64,000 nt of DNA, taken from Kiritimatiellia bacterium. GTDB lineage: Bacteria; Verrucomicrobiota; Kiritimatiellia; CAIQIC01; Lenti-01. A program made the translations under genes and the position numbers. This document shows, in pieces, positions 27,567 through 64,000 of the stretch (within the stretch, counting starts at the first letter, position 1; the number at the start of each line of letters is the position of its first letter). The notes beneath the pieces are model-generated. The model was not told the origin of the DNA and made no database searches. It saw only the letters and a program-made list of their open reading frames with translations. The stretch is from contig JAFXQI010000001.1 of the NCBI GenBank assembly GCA_017527155.1, positions 1 to 64,000 on the forward strand, given 5' to 3'.

Positions 27567-27721
27567 TTTTCCAACCATTGGAAAACTTTTTTCCAATCAT
27601 TGGAAAAATCGCGGAAAAATTTTCCAATCATTGGAAAAACGACGAAAATTTTTTCCAATCATTGGAAAAAACGCCCCGGATTTTCCAACCATTGGAAAAT
27701 ATTTTTCCAACCATTGGAAAA
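27567..27721. repeat. Palindrome array P2 (six copies of TTTTCCAAYCATTGGAAAA)
   Basis: Six exact 19-bp palindromes at 27567, 27589, 27620, 27651, 27681 and 27703 (start positions) are separated by 3, 12, 12, 11 and 3 nt. Copies 1, 5 and 6 have the CCA centre and the others TCA. The array starts 10 nt after the hypC stop. Its layout is nearly symmetric, with a 3-nt-linked doublet at each end. Confidence 0.92.
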
Positions 27722-55665: not shown

Positions 55666-55736
55666 TTTTCCAACCATTGGAAACATTTTTTCCAATCGTT
55701 GGAAAACGGCCGAAACATTTGTCCGATCGCCGGAAC
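55666..55736. repeat. Palindrome array P3 (two good copies, one decayed)
   Basis: TTTTCCAACCATTGGAAAC (55666-55684), 3 nt, TTTTCCAATCGTTGGAAAA (55688-55706), 11 nt, then a decayed unit TTTGTCCGATCGCCGGAAC (55718-55736). The linker lengths and the CCA-first doublet are as in arrays P1 and P2. The third unit keeps its dyad while losing most of the consensus. Confidence 0.8.
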
Positions 55737-55825: not shown

Positions 55826-55882
55826 GACCATCAGCAAAAAATGTCCGCCCCGGCGGACGCATCGACAGAGAGGAAGCGCATC

Positions 55883-58800
55883 ATGAGAAAATGGTTGGGC
55901 ATTGCATTGGCCGGGTTCGCCGCCCTGGCTTGGACGGGTACGGCACGGGCCACGAATTACGCCCTCTGCACGGGGTTGAACAAGTATTCCTCTTCCTACA
56001 TGTCAGGCAACGATTTGACCGGGTGCGTGCCGGACGCCAAGAACGTCTACACGAACATCACCCTCCGCGGCGAGTGGACGTCGTCGAACGCGAAGCTGTT
56101 CACCAATTCCCAGGGCACCTTCGCGGCGGTCTCCAACCAGCTCATGAGTTTCGCGTCGACCGCCGTCAGCGGCGACGTGGTCCTCTACTACCACTCCTCC
56201 CACGGCTACCAGGACAGCGGCAAGAAGACGGGTATCTGCATGTACGACGACGACATGCCGGACTCCTCCTTCGCGAAGATCCTCGCCAACTTCAAGGCGG
56301 GCGTGAAGGTCGTCATCGTGCTCGACACCTGCCACTCCGGCGGCATGTTCAAGAGCCTCCGCCGCGACGGCGCAACGGCGCTGGCCTCGCCCTTCGCGTT
56401 CGCCGAGCGCGTCAACGAGGAACTGGCGGCGATCCGCGCCGACGAGGCCGCGCGCGGCATCCGCACGGCGGCGAAGCTGGCGATTGCCGACTGCGGGTGG
56501 GTGACGGCGGCCGACTACAACCAGTATTCGTGGGACGGCGACGAAGGCGGGGCCTTCACGGAGTGCTTCGTCGGCTCCGTCAAGTCCGGCGCCTGCGACA
56601 AGAGCCCCTACGGCAACGGCGATTCCTATGCCACCTTCATGGAGATGTTCGACTACGCGGCCGCGCAGGACGACACGCACGGCAACGGCAAGCCCGGCAC
56701 CGAAGACTACACGATGCCCCAGTGCACCAACACCACCGTCCTCGCGGCCGTGACGTTCGGCTGGGTCGGCAAGGAAGAGCCTTCCGGCATCCGCTTCGCG
56801 CCCATCCCCGAGCAGTTGGCGACCGTCGGCGCGCCCATCTCCTGCACGCTGGTCGCGTCCAACGTGGACGGCTCCACCGGCGCCATCACGTTCTCCGTCG
56901 CCTCCTCCACGGCCCCCGCCGGCAGCTACTCGCTGAGCGGCGCGGACTTCACGTTCACCGCCCCGGCCGACGGCTCCTACTCCTTCGATTTCCTCGCCAC
57001 CAACAAGACCGCCAAGACGTTCGGCAAGGCTTCGATGAACGTCTCGGCCACCCTCGCCGCCCCCGCGGGGCTCGACAGCACCGGCATCACGGCCACCTCC
57101 TTCACCGCGAACTGGGACGCCACGCCCGGCGCGGCCTCCTACCTCCTCGACGTGTCCAGCTCCGACTTCGGCGCCAAGGCCGCCCCCAAGGCCGACGACG
57201 CGCTTCTCAGCGAAAACTTCGAGGCCTTCTCGGGCACCTCCGCCGACCGCTCCTCCAACTTGGATGAATACTTGGTCGGCACCGGCTGGACCGGCAGCAA
57301 GGTCTTCGAGAACGCCGGCTCCGCCAAGCTCGGCAGCAGCAAGGCCACGGGCTGGATTGCCACCCCCGAACTCGACCTCTCCTCGGGCGGCTCCGTCTCC
57401 TTCCTGCTGAGCCAATACAATACGGACGCCAACACGGTCACCGTCTCCATCCTCTCCGGCGGCGAGGAGACCGAAATCGGCTCCGTCACCCCCGGTTCCG
57501 CCGAAACCGTCGAATTCGCCATCCCCGCGGCCTCCTCGGCCACTTCCGTCAAAATCGCGACGAGCACCAAGCGCGCCATCATCGACGACCTCGTCGTCAC
57601 GTCCGGCGGCGGCGCCGACGTGCTGGCCAACCAGCCGGTCGAAGGCACCAGCTACACGGTCGAAGGCCTCGAAACCTCCACTTATTACTGGCGCGTGCGC
57701 GCGGTGGGCAACGCCAAGGGGCCTTTCTCGGCGACCGAGGAAGTGACGCTCAAGTCCGACCCGTCCGCCCCGCCGAGCATCCGCAAGATCGACGACATCG
57801 AAATCGAGGTCGGCGAAACCGCCACCGCGCAGGTCAAGGTTTCCGCCCCCGACGAGGCGCCCGTGACGTCCCTCTCCATCACTGACGGCGATGCGGCCGC
57901 CACGCTCGAAGACGGCGTGTTCTCCTTCGCCCCCGCCGCTCCCGGCACCTACGACTTCACCATCACGGCCGTCAACGCCAACGGCCCCGCCGAAGTCTCC
58001 TTCGCGGTTGTCGCGACCCTCGCCGAGCCCGAGACGCCCGAACAGCCCACCGTGGTCGCCTCCGACAGCTTCACCGCCGTCTGGGAAGCCGTACCCGGCG
58101 CGGCCAGCTACGAACTCGTCGTCATCGAGGGCCAGGGCGGCTCCTCCGGCGGCGGCGGCAGTGGCGGCGGCTCCGGCGAAACGCTCACCGAAACCTTCGC
58201 CAACGCCTCGTTCTCCTCGGCCGTCGGTCAATACGTCGACCAGACCATCACGGGGTGCGACCTCGGTACCTGGACCGCAACATCCTGCCGCGGCGACAAG
58301 GGCACGCCAGTGTTCCGCGCCGACGGTACCCTCACCTCGCCTTCGATCGCGGGCGGAGTCGCCTCCGTCGAATTCGATTACGACTGGCCCTTCAGCGAAA
58401 GCGGCTCCTGCGACATCGACCTCTACGTCAACGGCACGCAGGTGGACAGCGCGTCGGTCACCGGCGGCACGGCCGGTACGGCGTCCTACGCCTCGTTCTC
58501 CGCGGTGGCCGGCCCGGCCTCCATCGAGTTCCTCAACAAGGGCGCCAGCAACAAGCGCATCCAGGTGACGCAGGTCCGCATCGGCACCGCGGCCAAGTCC
58601 ATCGCCCGCGCGGCCGGCGACGTCGTCTTCTCCAACAACGTCGGCAACGTCACGAGCTACGACGTGACGGGCCTGCGATCCAGCACCGAGTACACCTTCG
58701 CCTTCCGCGCCGTCGCCGAAAACGGCGAAACGACCGACTGGTCCGCGCCCGTGACGGTGAAGACCGACGACGGTCCCTCCGCCCCCGCCTGGTCGGCGAT

Positions 58801-61800
58801 CCCGGCCCAGCACGCCTACGTCGGGGCGACCTTCCAGCTCGACCTCTCCGGCTACCTCTCGGGCAGCCCCACCCCGGCCGTGACCGCCGACATCGGCACC
58901 GTCAGCGGCCTGCACTTCGTCTACGAGCCCGACGCCACCGGCAGCGTGACGGTCACCCTGACCGCCGTCAACGACTCCGGCACCGACACGGTCTCCTTCG
59001 ACCTCGCGGTGGACGAGCCTCCCGTCGGAGGCAACCACTACGCCGTCATCGTCGGCTGCAACAAATACGACACGGAATACATCGACTCCAGCAGCTTCCT
59101 GAACGGCTGCGTGCCCGACGCCAACCACGTCCAGGCGCTCGTCACCTCCCGCGGACAGTGGGATGCGGCCAACGTCGCCAAGCTCACCGACTCCTCCGCC
59201 AAGCACTCCGCCGTCCTTTCCGCCATCGCCTCCGCCGCCTCCAAGGCCGTGCCCGGCGACACCTTCCTCTACTTCCACTCCTCCCACGGCGGCAACTACA
59301 CCTACTCCTTCGTGACGAACACCGCCCTCTACACGGACTGGCCCATCATGGTCTACTCCGTCGATCCCGAAGGCGTCGACAACTGCGTCTGCACCTACGA
59401 CGCCGACTTCACCGCCGCCGAGCTGGCCGCCGCCCTGGCGGACTTCGACCCGGCCGTCAACATCGTCGTCATGATCGACGCCTGCCACTCCGCGGGCATG
59501 TTCCAGTACGACGACGGCACGCCAGTCAGCCAGCGCGCCGTCCGCCGCAACGCCGCCGGCAAGGCCATGCGCCCCGCCGACCCCGGCCTCTTCGCCGAAG
59601 CCGTCGGCGCCCAGATCGGCGCCATCCGCCGCGCCCGGGGCATCCGCGCCGCGGCCAACGTCGCCTTCGTCACCGCGGCCAACTTCGACGAGTATTCCTT
59701 CGACGCCCAGGGCGGCGACGGCGGCGAGTTCACCACCGCCTTCATCGAAGGCGTCACCAACGGCCTCTGCGACGGCGCCGACTTCGGCGACCAGGACGGC
59801 TGGGCCACCTTCTACGAAGGCTGGAACTACGCCAAGGACATCGCCACCGGCCTGCCCGAGGGCACGGAGGTCGACTACGACGGCCACGCGGTCGACGCCA
59901 ACGGCTACGCCCTCTACGACAATTCCTACTACGCGCAGGAGTACGGCGAGCCGGAGTACTACTACGACTACTACTTCACCCACCCGCAGATCGACAACGA
60001 GTCCCTCCTCCGCGTCGTCCGCGTCGGCTACGCCGGCACCCCGACCCTCGACGCCCCCGTTGCCGCCGAGGCCGCCGACGTGACCGCGTCCGGCTTCACC
60101 GCCTCCTGGTCCGCCGTCGCCGACGCCACCGGCTACCGCGTCCAGGTCGCCACCGACCCCTCCTTCTCCACCGGCGGCGCCGCCGACACCCTGACCGTCG
60201 ACGACCTCGCGGCCACGGGGACCAGCTACACCGACTTCTCCGGCATCTCCAAGGACTCCGGGGCTGTCTACGCCGGCAGGTCCGCCAAGAGCTCCTCGGG
60301 CGCCATCCAGCTCAATGCCACCACGACCACCGGGGCCGGCATCTGGACCACCGCGTCGGGCGGGAACGCCTCCCGCGTCGCCGTCGAATGGAACGACGGC
60401 ACCACCACCTCCAAGCCCCGCAGCCTCCAGATCTACGGCTCCGACACCGCCCTCGACTCCTACTCCGCCGTGAAGGCCGCCACCCTCCTCGGCAGCATCG
60501 TCTACGGGACGGCCAGCGACCTCGCCATCGAGGGCACCTACGCCTACGTCGGCATCCTCGCCAACGGCGGCGCCCTCTACCTCGACTCCGTCACCGTCGA
60601 ATGGGGCACCGCCGGCAGCGGCTCCTCCATCGTCCTCGATGACAACGTCGGCAACGTCACCGCCTGTGACGTCTCCGGACTCGAACCCGAGACCGCCTAC
60701 TGGTACCGCGTCCAGGCCCTCGGCGACCCCGTCGATTCCGACTTCTCCAACGTCATCGGCCTGACCACCGACGCCAGCGCCCCCTACGCCCCCGTTTGGG
60801 AAGCGATTCCGCCGCAGACGGCGGCCGCCGGGGCGGCCTTGGTGGTTGACCTGAAGCCGTACGTGACCGGTTCGCCGAAGCCGGCCATCACGGCCGACGC
60901 CGGAACGGTCGAAAACGGCGTCCTGACCGTTTCCTTCGCGGCCGCGGGCGACTACACCGTCAACCTCACCGCCGAGAACAGCGAAGGCTCCGACACGGCC
61001 ACGCTGGCCGTCTCCGTCACCGACGCCCCGGTCACGGTTCCCGTCCTGACGCTCTCCAACGCGACCGACTCCACCTTCGACGCCGACTGGACCGCCTGCA
61101 CCGGTGCCAGCGAATACCAGTTCCAGGTCGCCACGGACGACCAGTTCACCCCCGGCGGCGGTGGCGAAGGCGGCGGTGCCTTCAAGCTCGTCACCTCCGC
61201 CGAAGGGCTCATCGCGGGCGAATACGTCATCCTGGCCGAAACCGCCGACACCGCGATGAACAACACCTGCTCGGGCGCTTCCGCCGGCTACCTCGCCTGC
61301 ACGGATGTCACCGTCGAGGATTCCACCGTCACCACCGACGACGCCTCCATCATCTGGACGCTCGCGGGCGACGCTTCCTCCTGCACGCTCCACAACGGCG
61401 CCGCCGGCAAGTACGCCAACCCAGCCGCCAGCAAATCCGTCGGCTGGTCCGAAACCGCCTCCGGGTCCTGGACCCTCACGGTGAGCGACGGCATCGTCAC
61501 CGCCGCGAACGCCGCCGACACCACGTGGATGCTCCAGTACAACAGCAACTCCCCGCGCTTCATGTGCTACTCCTCCAACCAGAAGAAACTCCGCTTCTTC
61601 CGCCGCGACGCCTCCCGTTCCCCCGCGAAAGACGGCGGCTCCCTGCTGCTCGACACCACGACCAACGGCCTCGCCCTCACCGTCACCGGCCTCGAACCCG
61701 AGACCACCTACTACGCCCGCGTCCGCATGGCCGGCGGCGAATGGTCCGCCGTCGGGAGCATCGCGACCACGGGCGAAGGCCCCGTGGGCCCCGCCAAGTA

Positions 61801-64000
61801 CGCCCTGTGCGTCGGCGTCAACGAGTACGACTTCAAGGCCTATGAGGCCATGGGCTACGAGCTCACGCCCCTCCGGGGCACCGTCAACGACGCCACCACC
61901 ATGCGCGACAACCTCGTCGCCCGCGGCGGCTGGGCCCAGGCCAATGCCACCCTCCTGACCGACGAGGCCGCAACCAAGGACGCCGTCCGTTCCGCCATGG
62001 CCGGCTTCGCGACCCGCGCCAAGACCGGCGACACCTTCGTCTACCAGCACTCCTCCCACGGCCTCGGCCCCGAGAGCGAGGACGACACCGACGCCGACAT
62101 CGCCCTCGGCCTCTACGACAACCTCTACAGCGCCGAGGACTTCGCCGAAGACCTCGCCGCCTTCCCCGCCGGCGCCAAGGTCGTCGTCCTCATCGACGCC
62201 TGCCACTCCGCTGGCATGTTCAAGCACGGCTCCCGGACCGCCACCCGGTCCGCCGCCTTCGACATCGCCGCCCGCGTCAGCGCCATCATGGACGCCCGCC
62301 GCGCCGCCCGCCGCGCCCGCGGCGAAGACGTCTCCCGCAGCCTCTCCTCCGAGGAAATCGGCTGGGTCACCGCCGCCGACATCTACGAATCCTCCCGGGA
62401 CGGCGGCTACTACGACACCGAGGAGTGGATGGAGGACGACGACGCCGAAGGCGAAGTCACCGGCGCCTACTTCCTCGCCTCCTTCACCTGGGGCTGGTGG
62501 ACCGGCAAGGCCGACGTCTCCGGCACCGGCGACGGCGACGGCTGGTTCGACGCCTACGAAGGCTGGAGCTACTCCCTGCCCGTCTGCGAAGAAGGCGGCC
62601 ACCATCCGCAGTTCCTCCACGAAGACGTCCTCCGCTCCGTCGAACTCGGCTGGATCGGCGACGCCGCCCCCTCCGCGGCCATCGTCTTCGACCCCGTGCC
62701 CGGCGCCACCGTCGGCATCGGCGAAGAAGCCCTCCTCGAAGGCATCGCCGCCCGCAACGCCGACGGCACCTCCGACGGCATCGTCCTGAGCGTCCTCGCC
62801 GCCCCCGAAGGCGCCGAGTACACCTTCGAAAACGGCACCCTCGCCTTCACGCCCGACGAAGACGGCCTCTTCCTCTTCACCATCCAGGCCGCCAACGCCG
62901 ACGCCGGCACCAGCGCCACCAAGCTCCTCGGCGTCACCGCCGTCCTCCCCGCCCCCGTGGCGCTGGACGCGACCGACCTCGCCGACACCTCCTTCACCGC
63001 CAACTGGCAGGCCGTCGACGCCCCGCTCTTCGCCTACCAGCTGCAAGTCTCCACCGATCCCGCCTTCCCGGCCCCCGAGCCCGAGATGGTGCTCGACGAA
63101 GGCTTCGACGGCGTCACCAACAAGGCGAGCCTGGAGGACAAGGCCTGGACCTTCACCGGCACCTTCGGCACCTACACCTCCTCCGCCTACTGCGGCGAGG
63201 ACGCCCCCTCCATCAAGTTCAGCTCCGGAACCAGCGTCCTCACCAGCCCGAACTTCAGGCTCTCCGGCGAAGCCGCCATCCGCTTCTGGACCCGCGGCAA
63301 CGGCAGCAACGTCACGTCCACCCTCAAGGTCGAACTGCTCGTCGACGGCGAATGGACCGAACTCGACACCTTCGTGCCCTCCCCCGACGGCGAACAGAAG
63401 GAATACGACGCGATTGACGTCGCCGCCAAGCAGCTCCGCTTCACCTGCACCAAGAACGTCGGCAACGTCGCCCTCGACGACGTGCAGCTCCTGTGCCTGC
63501 CCGCCAGCACGGCGATGGCGCTCGACACCGACGAAATCGACCCCGCCGCCACCAGCTTCCCCGTCGAAGACCTCGTCCCCGGCACCACCTACTACTACCG
63601 CCTCCGCGCCATCGCCAACACCCGGAGCGAATGGTCCGAGACCATCGAGGTCACCACCACCGGCGAAGCCCCGCTCCCCGTCCCGGAAGTGGGCCTCTAC
63701 GCCCCGCTGACCGACGCCGACACCTCCATCGGCGCGATCATGCTCGGTGCCGACGGCCTGCAAGTCCGCGTCCAGGTCGCCACCGACGAGACGTTCGCCG
63801 ATCCGGTCCACGACGAAACCACCACCGCCAGCTTCCTCCTCGTGACCGGCCTCGCCCCCGAGACGACCTACTACGTCCGCGCCTGCGTCATCGACGGCGA
63901 CCGTGCCGGCGACTGGTCCGACATCCAGACCATCACGACGGCTGCCGCCGGGCCCGGCCCGCAGCCCTCTGCCGCCGCCATCACGGACATGACCATCGCC
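55883..64000 (+). CDS. Giant secreted protein with three caspase-like (C14) domains, 3' end outside the window
   Basis: The frame is open for 2706 codons to the edge. A signal peptide (1-23, ending TARA) is followed by C14 domain 1 (about 24-293) with YYHSSHGY (His107) and VLDTCHSGGMF (Cys150). C14 domain 2 (about 1052-1390) has YFHSSHGG (His1135) and MIDACHSAGMF (Cys1201). C14 domain 3 (about 1972-2260) has YQHSSHGLG (His2059) and LIDACHSAGMF (Cys2107). All three His-Cys dyads look intact. Between them are Ig-like modules (SIPAQHAYVG-type), FN3-like modules (TSFTANWDATPGAASYLL; SGFTASWSAVADATGY) and inserted jelly-roll-like segments (LLSENFEAFSG...IDDLVVTS). A GAGAGGAAG ribosome binding site is 7 nt from the ATG. 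C14 proteases of this type usually cut after Lys/Arg or Asp; specificity is not predictable. The C-terminus, and any anchor, is not visible. Confidence 0.88.
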   Translation, partial: MRKWLGIALAGFAALAWTGTARATNYALCTGLNKYSSSYMSGNDLTGCVPDAKNVYTNITLRGEWTSSNAKLFTNSQGTFAAVSNQLMSFASTAVSGDVVLYYHSSHGYQDSGKKTGICMYDDDMPDSSFAKILANFKAGVKVVIVLDTCHSGGMFKSLRRDGATALASPFAFAERVNEELAAIRADEAARGIRTAAKLAIADCGWVTAADYNQYSWDGDEGGAFTECFVGSVKSGACDKSPYGNGDSYATFMEMFDYAAAQDDTHGNGKPGTEDYTMPQCTNTTVLAAVTFGWVGKEEPSGIRFAPIPEQLATVGAPISCTLVASNVDGSTGAITFSVASSTAPAGSYSLSGADFTFTAPADGSYSFDFLATNKTAKTFGKASMNVSATLAAPAGLDSTGITATSFTANWDATPGAASYLLDVSSSDFGAKAAPKADDALLSENFEAFSGTSADRSSNLDEYLVGTGWTGSKVFENAGSAKLGSSKATGWIATPELDLSSGGSVSFLLSQYNTDANTVTVSILSGGEETEIGSVTPGSAETVEFAIPAASSATSVKIATSTKRAIIDDLVVTSGGGADVLANQPVEGTSYTVEGLETSTYYWRVRAVGNAKGPFSATEEVTLKSDPSAPPSIRKIDDIEIEVGETATAQVKVSAPDEAPVTSLSITDGDAAATLEDGVFSFAPAAPGTYDFTITAVNANGPAEVSFAVVATLAEPETPEQPTVVASDSFTAVWEAVPGAASYELVVIEGQGGSSGGGGSGGGSGETLTETFANASFSSAVGQYVDQTITGCDLGTWTATSCRGDKGTPVFRADGTLTSPSIAGGVASVEFDYDWPFSESGSCDIDLYVNGTQVDSASVTGGTAGTASYASFSAVAGPASIEFLNKGASNKRIQVTQVRIGTAAKSIARAAGDVVFSNNVGNVTSYDVTGLRSSTEYTFAFRAVAENGETTDWSAPVTVKTDDGPSAPAWSAIPAQHAYVGATFQLDLSGYLSGSPTPAVTADIGTVSGLHFVYEPDATGSVTVTLTAVNDSGTDTVSFDLAVDEPPVGGNHYAVIVGCNKYDTEYIDSSSFLNGCVPDANHVQALVTSRGQWDAANVAKLTDSSAKHSAVLSAIASAASKAVPGDTFLYFHSSHGGNYTYSFVTNTALYTDWPIMVYSVDPEGVDNCVCTYDADFTAAELAAALADFDPAVNIVVMIDACHSAGMFQYDDGTPVSQRAVRRNAAGKAMRPADPGLFAEAVGAQIGAIRRARGIRAAANVAFVTAANFDEYSFDAQGGDGGEFTTAFIEGVTNGLCDGADFGDQDGWATFYEGWNYAKDIATGLPEGTEVDYDGHAVDANGYALYDNSYYAQEYGEPEYYYDYYFTHPQIDNESLLRVVRVGYAGTPTLDAPVAAEAADVTASGFTASWSAVADATGYRVQVATDPSFSTGGAADTLTVDDLAATGTSYTDFSGISKDSGAVYAGRSAKSSSGAIQLNATTTTGAGIWTTASGGNASRVAVEWNDGTTTSKPRSLQIYGSDTALDSYSAVKAATLLGSIVYGTASDLAIEGTYAYVGILANGGALYLDSVTVEWGTAGSGSSIVLDDNVGNVTACDVSGLEPETAYWYRVQALGDPVDSDFSNVIGLTTDASAPYAPVWEAIPPQTAAAGAALVVDLKPYVTGSPKPAITADAGTVENGVLTVSFAAAGDYTVNLTAENSEGSDTATLAVSVTDAPVTVPVLTLSNATDSTFDADWTACTGASEYQFQVATDDQFTPGGGGEGGGAFKLVTSAEGLIAGEYVILAETADTAMNNTCSGASAGYLACTDVTVEDSTVTTDDASIIWTLAGDASSCTLHNGAAGKYANPAASKSVGWSETASGSWTLTVSDGIVTAANAADTTWMLQYNSNSPRFMCYSSNQKKLRFFRRDASRSPAKDGGSLLLDTTTNGLALTVTGLEPETTYYARVRMAGGEWSAVGSIATTGEGPVGPAKYALCVGVNEYDFKAYEAMGYELTPLRGTVNDATTMRDNLVARGGWAQANATLLTDEAATKDAVRSAMAGFATRAKTGDTFVYQHSSHGLGPESEDDTDADIALGLYDNLYSAEDFAEDLAAFPAGAKVVVLIDACHSAGMFKHGSRTATRSAAFDIAARVSAIMDARRAARRARGEDVSRSLSSEEIGWVTAADIYESSRDGGYYDTEEWMEDDDAEGEVTGAYFLASFTWGWWTGKADVSGTGDGDGWFDAYEGWSYSLPVCEEGGHHPQFLHEDVLRSVELGWIGDAAPSAAIVFDPVPGATVGIGEEALLEGIAARNADGTSDGIVLSVLAAPEGAEYTFENGTLAFTPDEDGLFLFTIQAANADAGTSATKLLGVTAVLPAPVALDATDLADTSFTANWQAVDAPLFAYQLQVSTDPAFPAPEPEMVLDEGFDGVTNKASLEDKAWTFTGTFGTYTSSAYCGEDAPSIKFSSGTSVLTSPNFRLSGEAAIRFWTRGNGSNVTSTLKVELLVDGEWTELDTFVPSPDGEQKEYDAIDVAAKQLRFTCTKNVGNVALDDVQLLCLPASTAMALDTDEIDPAATSFPVEDLVPGTTYYYRLRAIANTRSEWSETIEVTTTGEAPLPVPEVGLYAPLTDADTSIGAIMLGADGLQVRVQVATDETFADPVHDETTTASFLLVTGLAPETTYYVRACVIDGDRAGDWSDIQTITTAAAGPGPQPSAAAITDMTIA

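Follow-up and report, generated by a model that had tools for sequence, protein, structure and literature searches.

Three C14 protease domains in one exported, apparently mosaic protein of a Kiritimatiellia bacterium

The caspase relatives of bacteria are mostly described as proteins with one such domain that act in the cytosol in stress or cell death. The locus described here encodes three such domains in one exported chain. It lies at the end of the window, the stretch of 64,000 nucleotides that we analysed, which is the first 64000 bases of contig C98 (79,731 bp) in the 3.2 Mb genome of a Kiritimatiellia bacterium with relatives among the rumen Kiritimatiellae. The gene (55883..64000, + strand, as are all features of the gene and protein given below) runs on beyond the window, ends with a TGA at contig position 64147 and encodes 2754 amino acids. 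A first-pass annotation of the window had proposed one uninterrupted frame with a signal peptide, and the contig bears this out: between the ATG at 55883 and the TGA, 147 bp beyond the window, there is neither stop nor frameshift. Because the antisense frame is likewise open over more than 2600 codons, openness is weak evidence of coding; the case is made by homology, in the form of the domain matches, and by purifying selection, with a dN/dS of 0.12 in domain 2 against the sister species RUG11196. A Shine-Dalgarno-like sequence (GAGAGGAAG, 55866..55876), read from the sequence, precedes the ATG, and a hairpin with a T-run lies 3' of the gene (L001 9168-9191) and also follows the sister gene.

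The gene stands downstream of his genes and a glycosyltransferase and upstream of a TetR/GNAT-like protein. The RUG11196 copy occupies another genomic site, in a glutamine synthetase/GlnK/AmtB-like region whose counterpart in the present genome is located on contig C58 and does not contain the triple-C14 gene. The window also holds clusters of a 15-bp palindrome, TTCCAA-N3-TTGGAA (2542-2639, 27569-27719 and 55668-55704; 12 copies, 0.04 expected), which are apparently intergenic. One cluster lies ~180 bp upstream of the triple-C14 gene, and short matching repeats occur at many sites in the genome. Past the window, at contig C98 73386-78112 (L161 13387-18113), a CesT-type secretion chaperone adjoins a 1428-aa protein with an ABC1/APH kinase-like match, a pair that suggests a type III secretion system with effectors; a 1052-aa gene, possibly similar in kind to the latter, lies downstream of the caspase gene in RUG11196.

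The chain begins with a Sec-type signal peptide (MRKWLGIALAGFAALAWTGTARA, residues 1-23, 55883..55951), placed by eye with the cut before T; homologues begin likewise. The mature protein has a computed mass of ~283 kDa and a pI of 4.1. C14 domain 1 (residues 24-300, 55952..56782) is followed by linker 1 (residues 301-1048, 56783..59026), which consists of Ig-like and FN3 modules, some of the FN3 domains having jelly-roll-like modules inserted in them. That these are insertions is read from a comparison with two-domain relatives (L094, L096), where the equivalent FN3 domain is without the insert. In a profile search, part of linker 1 hit a surface nuclease family module, and its 145-residue inserted module had no match in the PDB. 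C14 domain 2 (residues 1049-1385, 59027..60037) leads into linker 2 (residues 1386-1968, 60038..61786), which consists of FN3 and PKD/Ig modules by profile and by Foldseek of a low-confidence model. C14 domain 3 (residues 1969-2262, 61787..62668) is succeeded by a C-terminal tail of Ig/FN3/choice-of-anchor-J-like character (62669..64000, with the last 54 residues partly past the window), whose match to choice-of-anchor J is weak. The profiles for fn3, Ig and PKD, together with the jelly-roll-type module, agree with the earlier description of the linkers; an exported multi-protease, with predicted activity, is likewise supported.

All three proteases appear complete. Pfam PF00656 matches domains 1, 2 and 3 separately (E 2.5e-13, 1.5e-13 and 3.2e-10), and the motifs HSSHG and D[AT]CHS occur in three copies each, as the first-pass annotation had recorded. 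The dyads, numbered from MRKW, are H107/C150 (codons 56201-56203 and 56330-56332), H1135/C1201 (59285-59287 and 59483-59485) and H2059/C2107 (62057-62059 and 62201-62203), and all are intact; comparison with the homologous metacaspases makes the second His of HSSHG the catalytic one. Between the catalytic Cys residues, the reported spacings of 1051 and 906 residues are exact. The PDB relatives of the domains are GSU0716 and metacaspases. A structure prediction had been proposed as a check, and the AlphaFold model of domain 1 (49 sequences, pLDDT 88, pTM 0.90) folds as a metacaspase, with GSU0716 (E 5e-16) and plant, yeast and trypanosome metacaspases as its nearest Foldseek matches. Of the outcomes that the first-pass annotation had named as refuting, a split frame did not occur, nor did a loss of the catalytic fold in domain 1. 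The model of domain 2, linker and domain 3, built from a five-row alignment, is too poor (pLDDT 45) to use for their geometry, and the similarities to Ig/FN3 arrays and GSU0716 that Foldseek found for it are suggestive only; domains 2 and 3 were therefore assigned by profile and sequence matches. For membership of the C14B metacaspases/orthocaspases, the p20 His-Cys dyad is present three times, and the fold is found in domain 1 by model, whereas in the other two domains its assignment comes from sequence profiles alone. Pfam returned C14 throughout, plus a weaker C13 match for domain 1, and no C25.

The alignment of 49 domains shows no variation at the catalytic His, the catalytic Cys or the two S1 acids (columns H85, C128, D29 and D126). 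The S1-pocket residues of TbMCA2 are Cys92, Asp95, Ser156 and Asp211 (PMC4357240). By sequence comparison, domains 1 and 2 carry residues at the same spacing (C48, D51, S105 and D148 in domain 1), and in domain 3 a Thr replaces the Cys equivalent to Cys92. Since the spacing equals that of TbMCA2, specificity for Arg/Lys is predicted, with an acidic S1 pocket of this type in each of the three domains.

The loops that follow each catalytic Cys are strongly basic, with K+R at 15-18% in the three loops versus ~4% in the linkers (Fisher p 2e-8). In domain 1, the basic loop and helix (residues 154-204, 56342..56494) contain Arg160-Arg161, a candidate autoprocessing site that borders the only stretch of the model with pLDDT below 50. 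Basic residues are found at this loop in all inner-clade relatives and are absent in several outer ones. Type II metacaspases are well known to process themselves (PMC4357240), and the observed pattern would fit cleavage within the post-Cys loops.

A group of related proteins surrounds this one. The first-pass annotation had asked whether related genomes hold proteins with two or more C14 domains. The congener RUG11196 (G001) encodes a three-C14 protein of 2777 aa when joined, with three intact dyads at the same spacing; its gene is broken inside domain 2 by a contig break, and although the two ends overlap by no more than 5 bp, both the frame and the domain alignment run on across them. In five other gut MAGs (RUG13889, Tb.RUG.298, RGIG1497, RGIG10004 and RGIG3636), a single frame encodes two or more C14 domains, so multi-proteases characterise a group and did not arise by accident in one assembly. 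The domain occurs in 13 of the 17 genomes of the family, and the sources on record for relatives are the guts of goat, yak and other ruminants. A single C14 domain is usual among the remaining relatives, and many such proteins have tail modules of a similar kind. In several rumen MAG contigs (L103, L112, L113 and L115), a lone C14 domain is joined to a long N-terminal region, which in L103 and L112 resembles, by eye, a purple-acid-phosphatase or metallophosphatase. On other ruminant-gut MAG contigs (L131, L133, L135 and L137), C14-like genes stand in rows, in which one copy is intact and several others have no recognised dyad.

In a tree of 52 rows, the three domains fall at different places. 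Domain 3 groups with its RUG11196 counterpart, is sister to Bacillota domains (100/97) and sits within a clade that multi-domain proteins of Kiritimatiellae form (100/100); the sole partner of domain 2 is domain 2 of RUG11196, and domain 1 is a lone long branch. A recent internal triplication, one of the origins that a tree had been proposed to separate, is rejected by the tree and by the AU test (p 9e-6 for one clade of all three), as is orthology of the two species' domains 1 (AU p 1.7e-4); domains 1 and 2 as sisters were not rejected (AU p 0.10). These p values are somewhat optimistic, because the choice of groups to test was made in part with the tree already in view. The earlier suggestion that domain 1 and domains 2 and 3 have different roles stands in part. 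The three domains differ in descent, so different roles are possible; DTCHSGG versus DACHSAG fails as a marker of role, as both letters occur across single-domain relatives. Outside PVC bacteria, the closest proteins are those of Eubacterium ruminantium and Lachnospiraceae, which run from signal peptide through C14, Ig and FN3 to choline-binding-type repeats. The nesting of these Bacillota domains within Kiritimatiellae suggests a cross-phylum transfer from Kiritimatiellae, the direction being inferred because the root is a midpoint.

Comparison of the two sister species points to a mosaic. Housekeeping DNA is mostly 96-98% identical between them, with two neighbouring segments at 93% and 89%. 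Against this baseline, dS is ordinary (0.03-0.11, and 0.05-0.11 for domain 2 and the scaffold) in the signal peptide, residues 401-750, residues 901-1750 and the last 54 residues; the third stretch includes domain 2, which is 99% identical, and the last is 94% identical. It rises to 0.90-0.99 in residues 24-400, the cassette of domain 1 and its Ig module, to 0.59 and 0.74 in the inserted modules at residues 751-900 (58133..58582) and 1751-1905 (61133..61597, 32% amino acid identity), and to 0.20-0.39 in domain 3 and the tail. Such sharp shifts of divergence at module borders speak for recombination and indicate that the D1-Ig unit, the two inserted modules and the D3-tail unit were probably exchanged as cassettes between lineages. 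Chimeric assembly at shared modules is the main alternative and is possible, because the mosaic is drawn from two MAGs, one of them split over contigs. Domain 3 has a dN/dS near 1.3 between the species, a weak and uncertain sign, because high GC depresses dS.

The first-pass annotation had proposed looking for a C-terminal anchor or sorting signal in the completed gene, and none was recognised. The protein has no transmembrane stretch, LPXTG or lipobox, and an NCBIfam and curated sorting-signal search of the tail found no PEP-CTERM, no T9SS C-terminal signal and no recognised anchor or barrel; a search for T9SS SprA gave no match anywhere, controls included. The genome encodes five secretins, and several of its other long exported proteins share modules with the triple-C14 protein. 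The C-terminal module, considered as a candidate sorting signal, aligns among this protein, its sister and one other protein of the genome, and weakly with the remaining ones. A long exported FN3 protein, apparently split over two contig ends that share sequence (C79 and C59; L141 and L144), has a C-terminus like that of the triple-C14 protein, at 38% identity. Display outside the cell, which had been suggested from the linkers, is plausible because the C14-Ig-FN3 unit sits on wall-binding proteins of Gram-positive rumen bacteria, and the presence there of the sister lineage of domain 3 supports an extracellular role.

Known systems resemble this protein in part. Prokaryotic metacaspases/orthocaspases (MEROPS C14B) such as GSU0716 (3bij) are alike in fold, His-Cys dyad and S1 acid spacing, whereas here three domains share one exported chain within Ig/FN3/jelly-roll modules; in a 2012 survey of 671 sequences, WD40, TPR and Sel1 were the main partner domains (PMC3501461). 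The wall-bound proteins of Eubacterium ruminantium and rumen Lachnospiraceae (L120, L121 and L126) share the signal peptide, the C14-Ig-FN3 order and a C14 domain sister to domain 3, but they have one C14 each, choline-binding-type repeats and Gram-positive hosts. RUG13889 (L094) and Tb.RUG.298 (L096) are likewise exported, with intact C14 domains and an Ig/FN3 linker, but differ in having two C14 domains, shorter linkers, FN3 without inserted modules and another pairing of domains in the tree. In operation, the protein may resemble the gingipains RgpA/Kgp (MEROPS C25), secreted clan CD Arg/Lys proteases with jelly-roll and Ig modules (partly PMC4357240; activity of the present protein is predicted). 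Gingipains have one protease per chain and T9SS export; the triple-C14 protein is not one of them, because its peptidase family is C14, three times over, and not C25, and no T9SS signal was found.

Based on these observations, we consider it fairly probable that the protein is an exported, fast-evolving surface or extracellular array of Arg/Lys-specific proteases held on its target by beta-sandwich modules; its activity, P1 specificity, autoprocessing, passage across the outer membrane and substrate are what we infer. Sec would export the large acidic chain, along whose flexible Ig/FN3/jelly-roll rod three independent cysteine proteases of the C14B metacaspase/orthocaspase type would be strung, working most likely outside the cytoplasm, at the surface or released. 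The beta-sandwich modules would hold the protein on target, and each protease would become active once cut within the Arg-rich loop that separates its p20 and p10 halves. Recombination between lineages would swap C14-Ig cassettes and inserted modules, changing specificity or antigenicity and leaving the scaffold in place. More tentatively, the protein could be a hypervariable extracellular polyprotease of gut Kiritimatiellae, in which a conserved scaffold carries recombined protease-Ig cassettes and binding modules for a combinatorial protease/adhesin specificity, one cassette lineage having passed to rumen Firmicutes.

Other readings use the same evidence differently. The C14 domains may chiefly cut after Arg/Lys in their own or neighbouring loops, freeing adhesin modules or proteases, with little outside substrate. 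Such self-processing is suggested by the multi-domain design, the precedent of type II metacaspases (PMC4357240) and the Arg-rich loops after each catalytic Cys amid linkers low in K/R; we nevertheless think it unlikely as the main role, since the abundance of single-domain relatives with similar tails argues that multiple proteases are not needed for processing, and cleavage of self and of outside targets are not exclusive. The protein could also stay in the periplasm, as no anchor, barrel or C-terminal sorting signal was recognised and the Sec signal peptide alone is evident. A purely periplasmic protease of stress response or quality control seems rather improbable, however, when a jelly-roll/FN3 rod of this size is typical of exported surface proteins, the Gram-positive relatives bear wall-binding repeats, and the genome has its secretins and other long exported proteins with shared modules.

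We regard as least probable a role in attacking other microbes, ciliates or phages or in warding them off, with module swapping as the trace of an arms race. The raised, module-bounded divergence between the sister species, the dN/dS of domain 3 and the different genomic sites of the gene would suit such a role, as would the match of the C14 domains to the caspase model of PADLOC defence systems. That match speaks only for the caspase fold, however; no partner gene, immunity gene or defence neighbourhood was recognised among the adjoining genes, which were judged by eye, and the dN/dS above 1 carries the uncertainty from GC noted earlier.

C14 domains, exported C14 proteins and Ig/FN3 arrays were each already known separately. 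In the open-licence PMC literature, we found no relevant paper on multi-C14 proteins, secreted metacaspases or Kiritimatiellota caspases, and no description of one exported chain with three intact C14 domains that is conserved in a sister species and seems to have arisen by cassette exchange. This protein sets three caspase relatives along a single exported rod, much as gingipains employ another clan CD family. Should it be active, it would represent a second, independent design of secreted Arg/Lys-specific protease-adhesins. With cassette exchange between sister species and a lineage shared with rumen Firmicutes, this module-swapping evolution would be directly testable in ruminant metagenomes.
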